Shown here: in pieces, positions 52,461 through 58,997 of the stretch
Layout: every line of letters begins with the position of its first letter
Position numbering within the stretch: position 1 is the stretch's first letter
Position numbers and translations under genes: made by a program
Notes under the pieces: generated by a model
What the model was told of the DNA's origin: nothing
Databases searched by the model: none
What the model saw: the letters and a program-made list of their open reading frames with translations, nothing else
Assembly (NCBI RefSeq): GCF_017355365.1
Contig: NZ_JADIJR010000013.1
Coordinates: forward strand, 1-64,000
DNA: 64,000 bases
From: Microbacterium sp. SD291
GTDB lineage: Bacteria; Actinomycetota; Actinomycetes; Actinomycetales; Microbacteriaceae
Direction: 5' to 3'

Positions 52461-52540
52461 CTCTGCGGTTCAGTGGCTCTGCGGTTCAGTGGCTCTGCGG
52501 TTCAGCGGCTCTGCGGATCAGCGGCTCTGCGGATCAGACG
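52461..52540. repeat. Five 16-bp tandem units (CTCTGCGGTTCAGTGG)
   Basis: CTCTGCGGTTCAGTGG occurs perfectly at 52461 and 52477. Variants at 52493, 52509 and 52525 carry C for T and A for T changes. The array fills the gap between the cyclodeaminase-family stop (52534-52536) and the racemase-family start (52443), overlapping the last codons of the former. Confidence 0.93.
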
Positions 52541-53463
52541 GCGAGGCGCGCGACGGCGAGGTCCTGCCACCCCATGCCGCACGTCTTCACGATGCGAGGG
52601 CGATCGGTCGCCGGGGCCACGGCGCCGGTGAACAGCTCGTGCATGGTGATGAGATCGGCGGGCGACAGCATCCCGGCGGCGATCGCGCCGATGACGTCTC
52701 CCGCCTCGGTGCGGGCCACGCGTCTGCTCTCGACGACGACCTGCGAGCGGCCGAGGAGGGCGGGGTCGAGTTCGGTGCGGTCGGGTTCGTGGGAGCCGAT
52801 CGCGATGATCGTCGCGTCGTCGCGGACGAGGGCGGCCGGGAACAGGGGAGTGGATGCCGTCGTGGCGCACACGATGAGGTCGGCGCTGCGGACGTCGGCT
52901 GCGGTGCCGACGGCGAGGTCGGCGTCGGGCGCGAACGCCCGAGCGGCTTCGACGGCGGCGCGTGCCCTGGTGTCGTCCCGGCCGATCATGCGCACGGTGC
53001 GCAACGGGCGGATGGCGGCGATGGCCTCGACATGGCGCACGGCCTGCGGTCCGCTGCCGAAGATCACCAGGTCGCCGGCATCCGGTCGGGCGAGAGGATC
53101 GGCAGCGGCGGCGGAGACGGCAGGGGTGCGCAGGCTGGTCAGCGCGGTGCCGTCGATCAGCGCCGTGGGGGTGAGGGTGTCGCCGTCGAGGAGGACGTAG
53201 ACGGCCTGGATGCGCTCCAGGCCGCGGGCGGGGTTACCCGGCGCGACGCTCGCGAGCTTCTGGCCGACCGCGCCGCCGACGGCTGCGGGCATCAGCAGGA
53301 GCTGGCCGCCGGGAACGTCTTCGATCGTGCGCGGCAGGTCGTACTCCGGGTCGAAGCCGCTTCGAAGGGTCTCCTGGATCGCGGCGATCGCGGCTGCCAT
53401 GCTGACCCGCTCGGAGAGTTCGCGGGCGGGGACCAGGGTGAGAGCGGCAATGACGTCGACCAT
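52534..53463 (-). CDS. Ornithine cyclodeaminase/mu-crystallin-family reductase
   Basis: A 309-residue NAD(P)-dependent enzyme. PGGQLLLMPAAVGGAVGQKL and ALIDGTALTSLRTPAVSAAA form the substrate part. VIFGSGPQAVRHVEAIAAIR near residue 135 is the Rossmann glycine motif. IIAIGSHEPDRTELDPALLG follows. Members next to hydroxyproline genes are 1-pyrroline-2-carboxylate or 1-piperideine-2-carboxylate reductases that produce proline. True ornithine cyclodeaminase is less likely in this context. It is first in the minus-strand operon. Confidence 0.85.
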   Translation of the reverse strand: MVDVIAALTLVPARELSERVSMAAAIAAIQETLRSGFDPEYDLPRTIEDVPGGQLLLMPAAVGGAVGQKLASVAPGNPARGLERIQAVYVLLDGDTLTPTALIDGTALTSLRTPAVSAAAADPLARPDAGDLVIFGSGPQAVRHVEAIAAIRPLRTVRMIGRDDTRARAAVEAARAFAPDADLAVGTAADVRSADLIVCATTASTPLFPAALVRDDATIIAIGSHEPDRTELDPALLGRSQVVVESRRVARTEAGDVIGAIAAGMLSPADLITMHELFTGAVAPATDRPRIVKTCGMGWQDLAVARLAV

Positions 53464-53509: not shown

Positions 53510-55414
53510 CTACGTGTGGCCTGCGGATCCGCGGATTCGCGCAGCAGGCCTCGGGTGACGTAAGCTTGTCCGCGGTGACGTGTCCGAGCGGCCGAAGGTG
53601 CAACTCTCGAAAAGTTGTGTAGGGTAACCCCCTACCGTGGGTTCAAATCCCACCGTCACCGCCAAGTTGTACACGTTGGAACCCCCGGTAAACGAAAGTT
53701 TGCCGGGGGTTTTGCTTTCCCGGTTTCCGGCTGCTGGTTGGGCTGAAGGGCGGCTTGTCGCGCCACTTCGCGCCGTGTGTCGCCCGTTCGCGGCAAGGAC
53801 GGCTGGATGGGCCAGTTCAGCCACTGCCGCCACGGGTGGGGCGTATTCGGCCTCGAGCACAATCTCTCGTTCTTGCGGATCATCAGGCTCATCGATGATG
53901 TCGATGCGGATGCTCGTGAACACCGCCTGGTTGAGGAGGCGCTTGGTGTGCTCGGAGACCGTGCTGTAGAGGTCGCCGGCTTTGCTCATGAGGCCTATGA
54001 CCGTGTCGACGTGTTCGCGCATGAGCAACGTGTCGGTTTCGGAGGCGCGGATGATCCGTTCCGCTGCGGCAATCTCGGCGGAAACCTGATCTTGTCGTGG
54101 TCTGATGTCTTCGGCAGCGATGACACCGTCAAGGTAAGCATCGATGAGCCGCTGCTTCTTCGTCTGGAGGGCGCGCAGGCGCTTGCGCTGTGTCCCGGCG
54201 AGCTTCTCGGCCTCGGTGCTCTCGGTATCAAGGATGCTGTGCGCAGTAGCGCGTGCGACGGTTGTCTCTTCAGGGGTGAATTGCACACGGGTGTCCCATT
54301 CGCGTTGCATGGCGTGCTCGACGTCTTCGACAGGGACGTAAGGCAGGTCGCAGGTGGTGCGGCCGGTGTGCCTGCCGAGGCAGAAGAAGTAGCTGTAGAC
54401 GCCGCCACGACCTCGGGAGTGTCCGTAGCCCATGCGTCCGCTGCAACGGTTGCAGAGCAGCCGCCCTTTGAGGGGGTGGTCGTGCTTCCATGCCCGGTCT
54501 CCGGCCAGGCGTCGGCCAGAGAGTAGCGACTGGACCTGATACCAGGTGTCATCGTCGATGAGTGCTTCGTGAGCGCCGTCGTAGACCACGCCGTGGTAGA
54601 TGATCTTCCCGATGTAATACGGGTTCTTCAGGAGGCGATGCACCTGAGAATTGCTCAGCGCCTTGCCTTCGTACTTCCTCGTTTTCCGGCTTTTCAATCC
54701 CCGCTCGGCGAGGAGGTCGGTCAGGGTCGTGATGCTGACATCGCCAGTGGCGTAGGTGCGATATGCCCAAGTGATGTGCTCGGCACGCTCCGGATCGAGC
54801 ATGATGCCTTTGATCTCGACGCCTTCGGTACGGGCGAGGGTGTTGAGATAGCCGATCGGTGCGACACCATGGGTGCCGCCGCCCCTGGCTTTCTGTTCCA
54901 TTCCCTTCATGGCCTCGGTGGCGACGTTCGAGGAGTAGTACTCATTCATCGCTGCCGTTACGGTGCGCTGGAATCGGCCTGCCGTGGTGTCGTCAAAGCG
55001 CTCGGTGACGGACTCCAGTTTCGCGCCCGTCTGCTTGATAGCAAGAAAAAGCGCCGCATCGTCAGCGGTGTTGCGTGCCAGGCGGTCGAGCTTGTGCACG
55101 ATCACGTACCCGACCTGGTGCACCTTGATGTACTCGAGGAGTGCCTGGAGTCCTGGGCGGTCGGTCGTGCGGGCGGACTCGCCTGCGTCGATGAACTGCT
55201 CAACGACCTCGGCGCCGAGGTCGTGCGCGTGACGGGTGCAGTACTCGCGCTGGGCAGGCAATGAGTACCCTTCCGGTTCGCCGTTCTTCCGTGCCTGACG
55301 AGAGGTCGACACACGCGCGTAGATCACGGCGCGCTTCATCCGAGCCGTTCTCACTTCCGTCACCTCGTCGGTAGACGGGAGTCCGATCGCCTGGGCAACA
55401 AGTTGATTTTTCAT
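53510..55414 (-). CDS. Large serine recombinase (integrase) reading antisense through tRNA-Ser
   Basis: A 634-residue frame. ATG 55414 has AAGGAGGG 8-9 bases upstream. The resolvase domain begins at RAVIYARVSTSRQ with nucleophile S36 and includes VIVHKLDRLARNTADD. The recombinase domain has LKNPYYIGKIIYHGVVYDGA. A zinc ribbon (LLCNRCSGRMGYG...CDLP) and a coiled coil (residues about 400-450) follow, as in phage-type integrases. Native-looking sequence ends around residue 560. The frame then runs across the tRNA terminator and, from about residue 584 to 614, antisense through the tRNA (giving VGFEPTVGG), stopping at 53510. Confidence 0.88.
   Translation of the reverse strand: MKNQLVAQAIGLPSTDEVTEVRTARMKRAVIYARVSTSRQARKNGEPEGYSLPAQREYCTRHAHDLGAEVVEQFIDAGESARTTDRPGLQALLEYIKVHQVGYVIVHKLDRLARNTADDAALFLAIKQTGAKLESVTERFDDTTAGRFQRTVTAAMNEYYSSNVATEAMKGMEQKARGGGTHGVAPIGYLNTLARTEGVEIKGIMLDPERAEHITWAYRTYATGDVSITTLTDLLAERGLKSRKTRKYEGKALSNSQVHRLLKNPYYIGKIIYHGVVYDGAHEALIDDDTWYQVQSLLSGRRLAGDRAWKHDHPLKGRLLCNRCSGRMGYGHSRGRGGVYSYFFCLGRHTGRTTCDLPYVPVEDVEHAMQREWDTRVQFTPEETTVARATAHSILDTESTEAEKLAGTQRKRLRALQTKKQRLIDAYLDGVIAAEDIRPRQDQVSAEIAAAERIIRASETDTLLMREHVDTVIGLMSKAGDLYSTVSEHTKRLLNQAVFTSIRIDIIDEPDDPQEREIVLEAEYAPPVAAVAELAHPAVLAANGRHTARSGATSRPSAQPAAGNRESKTPGKLSFTGGSNVYNLAVTVGFEPTVGGYPTQLFESCTFGRSDTSPRTSLRHPRPAARIRGSAGHT
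53574..53664 (+). tRNA. tRNA-Ser (anticodon CGA), CCA encoded
   Basis: The acceptor stem GGTGACG pairs with CGTCACC, with discriminator G and CCA following. The anticodon arm is CAACT-CTCGAAA-AGTTG with anticodon CGA. A long variable arm (TAGGG-TAAC-CCCTA) marks a class II serine tRNA. The T arm is GTGGG-TTCAAAT-CCCAC. The gene is 91 bases including CCA. A strong terminator follows at 53680. Confidence 0.96.
53680..53714 (+). terminator. Intrinsic terminator after tRNA-Ser
   Basis: AACCCCCGGTAAAC, loop GAAA, GTTTGCCGGGGGTT, then TTG: a 14-bp stem with one G-T pair, 15 bases downstream of the tRNA. It also lies within the antisense recombinase frame, near residues 567-578. Confidence 0.9.
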
Positions 55415-55848: not shown

Positions 55849-56799
55849 GTGGCATCCGGGGGAGTCGCGGCATCGGCAGACGACACCGTGACCAGTCCGA
55901 TCGAGGCCCTCGAGACCGTAATGTCCCTGTCGAGTAGCGAATCAACGGCGGTTCTCGACGAGGTGGCAAATGTGTCGACGGACGAGAGCGGTAGCGCAGC
56001 CATCGAGGCTGAGGTCAACGACGTCGAAGTAATCATCCCGACGAGCGCATCCGACCCGATCTCGCTGACGTTCGCAACCGGTAGCGCCTTCGCGGTCGAC
56101 CTTCCAGCTGGCGAGCAGTCAGCAGACGCCAGTGCCCTTGAGCCCGGTGTGGTGGCATTCGATGCGGGCACGTTCACAACGATCCCGGTGGTCAAAGACG
56201 ATGGCTCGGTTCAGATCGCAACGGTCCTCGATGGCCCAGAGTCCCCGACTGCGTATGAGTACGGCATCACCATTGCAGGTGGCGGCAGCCTCTCGTTGAC
56301 GGATGAGGGCGTCGTCCTCGTCACTGGGGCCGACGGGAAACTCACGGGTGCAGTCGCTCCGGCCTGGGCGCTCGATGCGGACGGTCGCAATGTCCCCACT
56401 CGCTACGAAGTTCAGGGCGACACGCTCGTTCAGATCGTCGACCACACTGAGGGGAGCTTCTCGTACCCGATCGTGGCTGATCCGTGGATGGGCGGTAACC
56501 TGTTCGATCGAATGAATACGGGCTCGTGGAACAGCCAGCCCCGATACTCGCTCTTCCGTAGCACCTGGGGTGCGGTCGTCAGCGGCTACGCGACCGCGAC
56601 GCCGATCTTCCTCTCTGCGGGGTGGTCGGAGGCCGTGTCGCGTTGGCCCGTCCTGACGAGCAAGGAGACGCTGCACCAGCAGTACGACTGCCACGCGTTC
56701 TATGCAATCCTTAAGCCTGACTCCTGGAACCTGGAGAAGGCTCGTTCAAACAATTCCGGTTGGGGCTCCACGATCGCCTCACACTGGTGCAACTGGTGA
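55849..56799 (+). CDS. DUF2599-like secreted protein with signal peptide out of frame
   Basis: A 316-residue frame beginning at GTG 55849, inside the hydrophobic part of a signal peptide. Going upstream the same frame reads SLIATTVLVASGGVAASAD but has no start codon before a TAA. A good ATG with AAGGGGTAAGG lies at 55788 in another frame (MVQQTTTR). Removing one base near 55804-55810 would join them, so a one-base insertion is likely. The body is acidic and beta-rich. The C-terminus (QYDCHAFYAILKPDSWNLEK, then TIASHWCNW) matches the DUF2599 pattern of actinobacterial exported proteins. Function unknown. Confidence 0.65.
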   Translation: MASGGVAASADDTVTSPIEALETVMSLSSSESTAVLDEVANVSTDESGSAAIEAEVNDVEVIIPTSASDPISLTFATGSAFAVDLPAGEQSADASALEPGVVAFDAGTFTTIPVVKDDGSVQIATVLDGPESPTAYEYGITIAGGGSLSLTDEGVVLVTGADGKLTGAVAPAWALDADGRNVPTRYEVQGDTLVQIVDHTEGSFSYPIVADPWMGGNLFDRMNTGSWNSQPRYSLFRSTWGAVVSGYATATPIFLSAGWSEAVSRWPVLTSKETLHQQYDCHAFYAILKPDSWNLEKARSNNSGWGSTIASHWCNW

Positions 56800-56807
56800 G
56801 GTGAATC

Positions 56808-57056
56808 ATGCGAACTCTATCTCTGTGCCTTTTGTCCGCCGGCGTCGCGCTCATAATCGCATTCGGAATCGTTACGTTCGAGGCCGGAATGATCCTCGAC
56901 GAAACCGGCGGTAACGGCCGGTTCCTGGCGGGTCAGGCAGTCATCGGCCTGAGTGGAGTCGTGCTCCTGCTCCTCGGCCTCGCTCTGTTTATCCTGTGGG
57001 CAAAGCGGCACTATCCAGTAGAAGCGCCGAACGCAAAGCCGGTGCATGCCAGCTGA
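56808..57056 (+). CDS. Small two-helix membrane protein
   Basis: An 82-residue protein starting 9 bases after the DUF2599-like stop. There are two hydrophobic helices, at about 4-24 (LSLCLLSAGVALIIAFGIV) and 42-66 (AVIGLSGVVLLLLGLALFIL). A short loop (EAGMILDETGGNGRF) separates them and a basic cytoplasmic end follows. Family not recognised. Tight linkage to a secreted protein gene on a mobile element resembles effector/immunity or secretion-helper pairs; this is speculative. Confidence 0.6.
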   Translation: MRTLSLCLLSAGVALIIAFGIVTFEAGMILDETGGNGRFLAGQAVIGLSGVVLLLLGLALFILWAKRHYPVEAPNAKPVHAS

Positions 57057-57311
57057 CTGAATCCACTGAATCGCCGGTCGACTCCTTCACTGCGAGTCGG
57101 CCGGCGCTTCGATTTGTCCTACTCGCTCAATCCGCATCCTCATCGCGCTGGACGGTGCCGGGTCCTACGTGAACGCCTCGGTGCAGATCGGGCATCCGGC
57201 ACACGTGCGGGTCGTGGCGGATGTGGCGGAGTGGTCGCTCGGGCTCGAGCCAGGCGCTCTGCGGGCGGCGATCGACGGGCAGACCTAGACTCGGTCGGCG
57301 AGCCGGCCCGC
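57057..57311 (+). other. Possible 3' gene remnant at the right edge of the element
   Basis: A plus-strand frame ending at TAG 57286-57288 reads IRILIALDGAGSYVNASVQI, then GHPAHVRVVADVAEWSLGLE and PGALRAAIDGQT. Its codon usage is that of the host, but it has no plausible start. It may be the truncated end of a host gene cut by element insertion, or a short unannotated protein. An inverted repeat CGCCGGTCGACT...AGTCGGCCGGCG (57073-57104) just before it could be a terminator. Confidence 0.35.
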
Positions 57312-58997
57312 TCACTCCGTCGCGAGATCCTCGACGGGCGCCGCGGCGATGGATGTGCGGGAGGTGCGAACGCCCGCGCGGTCGAGCATCGACGGAGACG
57401 GCGTCGAAGCGGCCAGTGCGGCGCTGAAGTCCGCTCCTGGGATGCGGAGCAGCCGGCACTCGGTCGCGGCCGTCACGGTCGCAGACCGTGCGGCGTCGTC
57501 GAGGAGACCGATCTCCCCGACATAGCCGGGCGTTGCGACATCGGGCAGGTCGATCGCGACGCCGTCGTCGCGCACGGCGCTGATCTGCAGCATCCCGTCG
57601 GTGAGCACCCACAGCGCGTCGGACGGGTCGCCCTGCCGGATGATGGTCTCCCCGGCCTGCACCGTGCGCTCTTCGACGGCTTCGGCAAGGTGCTCCAGGA
57701 GGCTGCGCGGCGCGCCGGCGAAGAGGTCCAGCTGTTCGAGGACGCTCGTGTACGGCGCGAGCCGGGCGGCCTTCTGCGCCATGTCCTTGTCGATCCGCAG
57801 CAGGACAGGCACCCCGATGAGGCCGAGCAGCGGCACGCCGAGGCCGATCGCGGCGAACGCCCAGCCGATCCCGAACTGCGCGAGCAGCCAGCTGCCGAGG
57901 ATGGAGGTCAGCACCGCGCTGGCGAGGATCATCACGTCCACGGTGCCGATCACCCGCCCGAGAACGTCACGCGGCAGGTCGCGCTGGAGGGTGGTGAAGG
58001 CGAGGACGTCGACGATCACCATCCCGACGCCCGACACGACCTGCAGCAGCAGAGCGCTCGGGATGGATCCGACGAAGACGGATATCCACAGTGGCACGCA
58101 CTGGATGACGAGCGCACCCGTGATGAGCAGGGTCAGCCGCCTCGACCCGGTGAGGCGCTGAGCGAGGCCCGCGACGATCACGCTGCCCAGGGCGTTGGCG
58201 GCGAGCAGCAGGCTGTATCCCGCGACGCCGCCGTCCAGGTGCTCGGCGAGCGACGGCAGCAGCACGGTCGCGGAGCTGGCGACGGCCGAGTCGAGCACGA
58301 GGAACATCGTGAGCACGAGCGCCTTGTGGTGCTTGCCGAGCGCTGCGACGCCAGACACCCACTGGGTGAAGGCGCCGCCGCCGGGTTCGGCGCTGCCCCG
58401 TGATCGCACCCGCAGCGTCCGGTACAGAAGAGCTGCGACGACGAAGCTCGCCGCATTGATCAGGATGCCCCAGACGGGCTCACCGACCAGCAGCAGGACG
58501 GCGCCGATCCCCGGTCCGACGACCACGATCACGCTCTCCAGCACCGCGAACAAGGCGTTCGCCGCCACCAGATCGGATTCGGGGACAGTCTCGGGGATGA
58601 GCGCTCCGGATGCCGCCCTCACCGGCGAGCACACGGCCGTGAGCAGCGCCGCCGCGAGCAGGAGCAGCCACAGCGGGGCGTCGAACACGACGAGCGTCGC
58701 GATGCCCAGCGTCACGAACGCGGCGAGGATCGCGCTGACCATCAGCACCATCCGCCGGTCGTAGCGGTCGGCGAGCACACCGGCGTAACCGCCGCACAGC
58801 ATCCCGACGATCCAGCGGACGGTGACGAGCGCCGCGATCCAGCCGGCGGAATGCGTGCGCTCGAAGACGTAGGAGATGAGGACGACGTTATAAGCCCAGG
58901 ATGCTCCGCCGTCCGCGATGAACGCCAGCGCGAGGGTGCGCAGGTCGTGATGTCTCAGCGCGGCGGTGAATCGCGGCTTCGCGACACGAGTTGCCAT
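57312..58997 (-). CDS. MFS transporter with C-terminal cyclic-nucleotide-binding domain
   Basis: A 561-residue protein. Residues 1-420 are an MFS_3-type 12-helix transporter, with the loop motif GVLADRYDRRMVLMVSA near 72. Residues about 435-540 are a cNMP-binding beta roll: RTVQAGETIIRQGDPSDALW, VLTDGMLQISA, GYVGEIGLLDDAARSATVTA and TECRLLRIPG. The GEIGLLDDAARSATV phosphate-binding cassette is present. Binding of cAMP or a related nucleotide could gate transport. Substrate unknown. Stand-alone gene. Confidence 0.88.
   Translation of the reverse strand: MATRVAKPRFTAALRHHDLRTLALAFIADGGASWAYNVVLISYVFERTHSAGWIAALVTVRWIVGMLCGGYAGVLADRYDRRMVLMVSAILAAFVTLGIATLVVFDAPLWLLLLAAALLTAVCSPVRAASGALIPETVPESDLVAANALFAVLESVIVVVGPGIGAVLLLVGEPVWGILINAASFVVAALLYRTLRVRSRGSAEPGGGAFTQWVSGVAALGKHHKALVLTMFLVLDSAVASSATVLLPSLAEHLDGGVAGYSLLLAANALGSVIVAGLAQRLTGSRRLTLLITGALVIQCVPLWISVFVGSIPSALLLQVVSGVGMVIVDVLAFTTLQRDLPRDVLGRVIGTVDVMILASAVLTSILGSWLLAQFGIGWAFAAIGLGVPLLGLIGVPVLLRIDKDMAQKAARLAPYTSVLEQLDLFAGAPRSLLEHLAEAVEERTVQAGETIIRQGDPSDALWVLTDGMLQISAVRDDGVAIDLPDVATPGYVGEIGLLDDAARSATVTAATECRLLRIPGADFSAALAASTPSPSMLDRAGVRTSRTSIAAAPVEDLATE

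Follow-up and report, generated by a model that had tools for sequence, protein, structure and literature searches.

A probable self-splitting serine integrase family at tRNA genes, seen from a tRNA-Ser(CGA) locus in Microbacterium

The window analysed here is a 64,000-nucleotide stretch of the genome of Microbacterium sp. SD291 (contig NZ_JADIJR010000013.1, positions 1 to 64,000), in which a mobile element with a serine integrase gene adjoins a tRNA gene. The integrase frame, which we call int-N, occupies positions 53510..55414 on the minus strand and specifies 634 residues from an ATG start. Its Pfam domains, in the order Resolvase, Recombinase and Zn_ribbon_recom, fit the large serine recombinases; all are serine-recombinase domains, as distinct from the tyrosine-recombinase domain of SSV-type suicidal integrases, and at 98.7 bits against an NCBIfam equivalog cut-off of 900 the protein is not assigned to the staphylococcal cassette chromosome (SCC) recombinase CcrB. 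On the plus strand, tRNA-Ser(CGA) at 53574..53664 is complete, CCA included, and would provide the chromosomal attachment site (attB). It is followed, within the integrase frame, by a terminator hairpin at 53680..53713 (plus strand) with arms at 53680-53693 and 53698-53711. As the original prediction held, the frame meets no stop before the tRNA; it is open through both terminator and tRNA, and by simple arithmetic the residue ranges given there are right to within about a codon (approximately 567-578 from the terminator, 584-614 from the antisense tRNA and 615-634 from upstream host DNA). An open antisense reading of tRNA-Ser(CGA) in this frame is common: the genes of many relatives matched when translated, several of them stop-free.

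Comparison within the genus places the left end of the element. The tRNA and the next 56 bp were searched against 366 genus genomes; 362 matched, and extent was judged among the matches listed, in E-value order. A match of at least 48 bp past the tRNA occurred only in G000, the genome of the window strain, and in G344, G356 and G137, which are also the only others to carry the full terminator stretch (in the window, z -3.4 for the 70 nt past tRNA base 73); in G182 the match reached 26 bp past the tRNA at 91%, and in the remaining listed genomes at most 8 bp. The left flank, comprising an ornithine cyclodeaminase gene, the tRNA promoter region and the tRNA, is similar in other genus genomes, and in G317, G324 and G289 this similarity ends at the final tRNA base, 53664. 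At this same tRNA, G137 carries an integrase of up to 59% identity, with insertion sequences interrupting; in G356 the terminator is retained along with some 17 codons similar to the end of int, 45 codons past a stop, and the locus is a remnant. In G344, an identical 95 bp starting from the last six tRNA bases stands at tRNA-Ser(CGA), at tRNA-Ser(GCT) and at the start of a 4020-bp integrase contig. Because the same 95 bp recurs at these sites and the long match is confined to 4 of 366 genomes, the element, judged by sequence, starts within the last six tRNA bases and carries the terminator with it; the dyad centre described below, between tRNA bases 73 and 74, sets the junction at 53661|53662. 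Residues 1-584 would then be element-encoded, residue 585 would straddle the junction, and residues 586-634, about 50 in all, would be host-encoded, read on the minus strand from 53510..53661 through the antisense tRNA and 20 upstream codons. The placed junction supports the condition set in the original prediction, a junction at this place, together with its expectations that integration hands the integrase a host-encoded tail and that the excised circle would lack that tail. What has to be corrected is the treatment of the terminator as the tRNA's own DNA: it is element DNA on the genus distribution and on its presence at two tRNAs in G344. The same DNA past 53714 in a strain free of the element was not seen, since the other three carriers have an integrase (G344, G137) or a remnant (G356). 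That terminator and junction are instead host DNA, with the integrase inserted further right, is barely credible and was rejected on the distribution over the 366 genomes, for although other tRNA-Ser(CGA) genes have hairpins of their own behind them (by eye), those hairpins differ, the window type being found in full in the four genomes alone, and G344 has identical copies at two different tRNAs.

Three side observations concern these loci. In G344 (L109, L148, L149), where one element end stands in two copies at two different tRNA-Ser genes, the integrase contig probably represents a collapsed repeat; no other contig of G344 matched the right end of this contig. The related integrase of G137 (L110, 8622-14500) is broken by several transposase-like open reading frames (ORFs). 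The last 25-28 bp of tRNA-Ser(CGA) are repeated about 2-16 kb downstream in G017, G010, G021 and G012, so that other types of element may also use that tRNA.

The arrangement recurs in relatives of the integrase. In a genus set of 39 non-self loci (genome G018 counted twice), the frame extends past the 3′ end of a convergent tRNA at 28; the other 11 are fragments, contig ends, loci with no tRNA found, or affected by an insertion sequence (L075), and one fragment, L028 (164 codons), stops 77 bp before its tRNA. Single-protein scans of genome and viral contigs returned no relatives, but alignment A1 did find them, yielding at least 78 loci in genome contigs. This is a sample, several of whose members come from the same genomes as the genus set; most belong to actinobacterial genera, and some lie in bins labelled Saccharibacteria or Bacteroidetes. 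Among relatives from genome and viral contigs that are at least 36% identical and have 600 bp of room, a convergent tRNA lay within 600 bp at 59 of 71, compared with 3 of 49 less similar loci. The stop falls past the tRNA 3′ end at 58 of the 59 (28 inside the tRNA, 30 beyond), the exception, L178, having a broken frame; a pattern of homologues ending before the tRNA, for which the original prediction had allowed, was not seen. Adding three loci with less room gives 62 tRNA-adjacent loci, at Ala, Ser, Lys, His, Val, Arg, Leu, Met and Gln tRNAs, to which the genus set adds Pro. Collections of phages and plasmids yielded no close relatives (589 and 384 records, all below 60% identity, the listed rows at most 32.1%).

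When the junctions of the 62 loci were aligned on the T-arm, the two sides proved to mirror each other. In the window, the B arm at 53640..53661 (plus strand) comprises the 22 bp left of the predicted core, from the T-arm to base 73, and the P′ arm at 53662..53683 (plus strand) comprises 22 bp of element DNA that repeats the T-arm motif in mirror image and also supplies the CCA. GTT stands at the mirror position of the element side in 61 of 62 P′ arms, with A in 57, and the core base is G in all 62. The window and related left junctions (attL) thus have, as a dyad centred on base 73|74, the short core between inverted arms that is expected of the attachment sites of large serine integrases (attP and attB); the P arm was found in related elements only. 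From this dyad symmetry we infer that the integrase probably recognises the conserved T-arm (GTTCRA), mirrored by the P′ arm of the element. The 70 nt past base 73 fold far better than shuffled sequences across the loci (median z -6.0; -2 or lower in 57 of 62), as expected for a terminator.

We next consider whether the integrase frame is maintained up to the core, using the stretch from the alignment end to the junction in 61 related loci (L178 left out). The integrase frame has no stop in 3156 codons, while the two remaining same-strand frames have 74 in 3152 and 63 in 3095, counts by which overlap by chance was rejected; it is stop-free at all 61 loci, whereas the others are so at 15 and 32. 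One and the same phase at the core is shared by 58 of the 62 loci and by 30 of 33 distinct arms, even though alignment end and core lie anywhere between 37 and 481 bp apart. Across the tail as a whole, a third-position excess in the integrase frame is seen in two groups of Ala-type loci (0.134 vs 0.065 and 0.036 in a group of 12 loci; 0.212 vs 0.152 and 0.087 in a group of 16). It could be argued that the overlap is trivial: an integrase that merely has no stop near its end could use any downstream DNA, and its tail would be meaningless. Integrated tails do reach anything between 1 and 250 codons beyond the core, no third-position excess appears in the Ala-type clade within the 36 nt that precede the core and hold the P′ arm (0.099, 0.117, 0.113), and McMurdie et al., remarking on the Dehalococcoides gene dsiB, thought functional coding by its overlapping ssrA end unlikely (PMC3146451). 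Against this stand the stop count, the constant phase, the excess over the whole tail in both Ala-type groups, and the conserved domain that carries the frame on at the far end of the element; we regard a trivial overlap as very improbable.

That far end was first seen through two attP-like junctions, L208 and L223, and motif matching located a P arm in seven loci, L208 included. This arm does not resemble a tRNA, and compared with P′ its outer motif is displaced outwards by about 5 bp. Reading the integrase frame across the core leads, in related elements, into a domain of about 150 codons with two helix-turn-helix (HTH) motifs, which AlphaFold models as two three-helix units (predicted local confidence, pLDDT, about 76-91, but a predicted template-modelling score, pTM, of 0.40). 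By computationally joining both ends of nine elements we predicted their attP sites, and the frame runs on past the core for 164 codons in G180, 160 in G214, 148 in G071, 159 in G192 and 137 in L179; that of L222 runs for at least 200 codons in the joined ends and 238 in a separate reading. G192 has the rarer phase at attL and the same deviation at its far end, so that the frame is kept at both. A pattern for one type of P arm, derived from such sites, was run against 361 genus genomes and found 18 sites in 18 genomes, four of them (G071, G180, G214 and G310) known beforehand, with none for the reversed control; tails of at least 100 codons follow 16 of the 18 P arms in the integrase frame and none in the other frames. 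L208, on an assembled Propionicimonas bin contig, has a single 706-residue ORF that begins with the integrase, crosses the core and enters the tail. In both G180 and G214, one element has its far end against an arm resembling that of a second element; no stop interrupts the frame at this join, and the ORFs concerned, of 280 and 257 residues, do not contain a complete integrase. Because the frame continues from the core at the far end, attP seems to lie inside int and integration would split the gene; in sequence, related elements thus show what defines a suicidal integrase, an attP within the integrase gene and a continuous frame in the predicted circle.

Other searches for far ends were negative. 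The C-terminal domain had no match in plasmids, patterns for the fused junction had none in viral contigs, a P-arm scan assuming P′ spacing gave no convincing site, and neither did a scan for a tRNA-like right junction (attR) over about 100 kb in five genomes, whose best hit, with 4 mismatches in G331, looks like a tRNA-Ala end. As a separate observation, at L239 (11936-12403) a far-end tail is located just past a tRNA-Arg, itself adjoined by a family integrase, and beside a further tRNA-like stretch.

The alternative that fares best holds that the far-end ORF, beginning at the core or shortly after it, is an independent gene, for instance for a repressor or a directionality factor, with the continuity reflecting shared attachment-site sequence. 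GTG stands at the core in 15 of the 18 sites, in-frame ATGs follow in several tails, the host junction of L179 creates an ATG one codon upstream, and in the phiRSM phages a DNA-binding ORF15 lies beside the integrase gene with attP between (PMC3816273). On the other side, no start codon stands at the core in the His type (GGG), the Arg type (TGC) or the Ser type (GCG); in G071 a stop in frame lies immediately upstream and the tail lacks an ATG ahead of its first HTH motif, though a TTG or GTG might serve as start; G192, despite its exceptional phase, has both ends in frame; and the closest pair, L339 and L217, shows a synonymous bias from core to first ATG, with 8 synonymous and 3 nonsynonymous codon changes when read in the integrase frame and 1 and 8 in either of the others. 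An independent gene is, in our judgement, unlikely.

The idea of a split integrase gene has points against it too, beyond the missing third-position excess next to the core. Circle, transcript and protein are predicted from sequence, the attP sites having been joined computationally. In five more distant pairs, nonsynonymous changes between core and ATG (15-22) exceed synonymous ones (8-12) in the integrase frame, the other frames having 2-6 synonymous, and the GTG at the core in the Ala-type clade could start the C-terminal domain as a separate protein. Some tails deviate: that of L222 resembles the rest for no more than its first ~124 residues, L218 has a stop 20 codons beyond the core, G099 and G284 have tails of 25 and 77 codons, the L208 tail is frameshifted later, inside the domain, L217 has a broken integrase frame, and G310 yielded no centre. 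For the Ser-type clade of the window a single P side was found (L179, Nocardioides), and none in this strain. Finally, 12 of the 71 relatives had no tRNA found; by eye, eight of these have part of a tRNA beyond the core, L208 has a P arm, L176 an insertion sequence, and L252 and L253 neither, the frame of viral contig L253 stopping 18 bp before the best-scoring centre. Separately, at the family integrases L203, L217, L231, L232, L234, L237, L250, L251 and L254, what follows the core is, by eye, no more than a tRNA 3′ part, and these could be rearranged or tandem sites.

On balance we think it likely that this is a family of self-splitting integrases, with the core between tRNA bases 73 and 74 and attP inside int, so that integration divides the gene while the element brings its own terminator. 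The junctions, the dyad, the element-borne terminator and, in related elements, the continuity of the frame are read from sequence. In the proposed circle, int would run through the core into the double-HTH domain of about 150 residues, whose codons lie at the opposite end of the element. On recombination at the tRNA the gene would be split: int-N, with the catalytic and zinc-ribbon part, would stay behind the tRNA with a tail read from its antisense strand, and the C-terminal part would move to the far end. The terminator of the element would replace that of the host, one stretch serving as codons, recombination site and tRNA terminator. We presume that the circle gives rise to the fused protein, that integration removes the C-terminal domain and that its loss changes activity or direction; the split might lock integration, change its direction, or free the domain as a partner. 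The main difference between the two states would accordingly appear, from related elements, to be this domain of the circle and not the antisense tail. A broader scheme is possible, though we hold it with less than even confidence: a phylum-wide family for which the universal T-arm is half the target and the integrase gene itself acts as a state switch, the circle enzyme with its double-HTH domain integrating, integration then removing the domain, leaving the gene to end in antisense tRNA and locking or redirecting the enzyme, and tandem integration re-arming int-N through the C-terminal domain of a neighbour.

A literature search, made mostly without subscription papers, turned up no published description that we recognised as this integrase family, and the comparisons that follow draw on the accessible parts of each source. 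The closest precedent found is the remark of McMurdie et al. (2011) on dsiB (PMC3146451). DsiB, which is CcrB-like, is likewise a serine recombinase next to an RNA gene, in the ssrA islands; the 3′ end of its gene overlaps attL, its stop codon lies only outside the island, and its authors considered that the protein may be fully functional only from the circle or with the 3′ fragment of an adjacent island. Unlike here, the accessible text describes no conserved far-end domain, calls the protein ends divergent and concerns Dehalococcoides. Archaeal suicidal tyrosine integrases of SSV type also have attP within the integrase gene, and their integration yields N and C parts (PMC8371274), but they are of an unrelated enzyme family in which the C part holds the catalytic domain, whereas here the catalytic and zinc-ribbon domains would stay together and only the C-terminal HTH domain would be lost. 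Mycobacteriophage BPs and its relatives, with integration-dependent immunity, have attP in a regulated gene whose protein C-terminus is altered by tRNA integration (PMC9262239); there the altered gene is the repressor and the integrase is of tyrosine type. The phiRSM Int/attP of Ralstonia filamentous phages, compared by description, combines a serine recombinase with an attP core that is a tRNA-Ser 3′ end, beside int and a DNA-binding ORF, but the enzyme is resolvase-like and attP lies between ORF14 and ORF15 and not in int (PMC3816273). In Mycobacterium, actinomycete integrative and conjugative elements (AICEs) have a serine recombinase at a tRNA gene (tRNA-Leu), a combination their authors call rare; by description, the accessible text reports no gene split or tail (PMC3218068).

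On sequence evidence, the family contradicts two statements in the accessible parts of the literature: that tRNA genes are no known target of serine integrases (Islander, PMC4383910), and that gene-splitting integrases are exclusively archaeal (review, PMC8371274). Integrase-On-Demand 2026 mentions tRNA sites in general (PMC12884075), and in the consulted parts of PMC10654092 they are named only for tyrosine integrases of M. abscessus prophages. The family suggests a built-in directionality device and an integrase set for tool building, and a half-site rule based on the T-arm could explain how one family reaches many tRNAs. The annotated C-termini of these integrases in integrated elements would be partly host sequence.

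In this strain the element is a low-GC island of about 3.4 kb with two small cargo genes: a 316-residue ORF at 55849..56799 (plus strand), with DUF2599 just under cut-off, and an 82-residue ORF at 56808..57056 (plus strand) with no Pfam family. The right edge of the island lies at 57057..57130, where neither attR nor the C-terminal int part was found, and host similarity resumes at 57130 within the last ~50 codons of a TetR-type regulator (57130..57290, plus strand) whose 5′ part is missing. The far-end domain was not found on the contig of the window; a search of G000 gave a single weak match on another contig, with an in-frame stop, and an exact-suffix search for tRNA-end repeats as attR gave two 9-bp matches only. 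The element here is probably a remnant, in which int-N and the terminator were kept and the right end with attR was lost, a very divergent far end being the other possibility. Since the far-end part was not found, the possible state-dependent switch of the original prediction, itself hypothetical, may no longer work in this strain.

Two further features of the window lie outside the element. At 57312-58997, a major facilitator superfamily (MFS) transporter is fused to a cyclic-nucleotide-binding domain; the fusion has 74-85% matches in six genus genomes, and in G084 and G289, the two also compared, it does not stand beside this tRNA. At 52461-52542, between two host genes, five copies of the 16-bp tandem repeat CTCTGCGGTTCAGCGG are present, and short matches just to the left recur in relatives.
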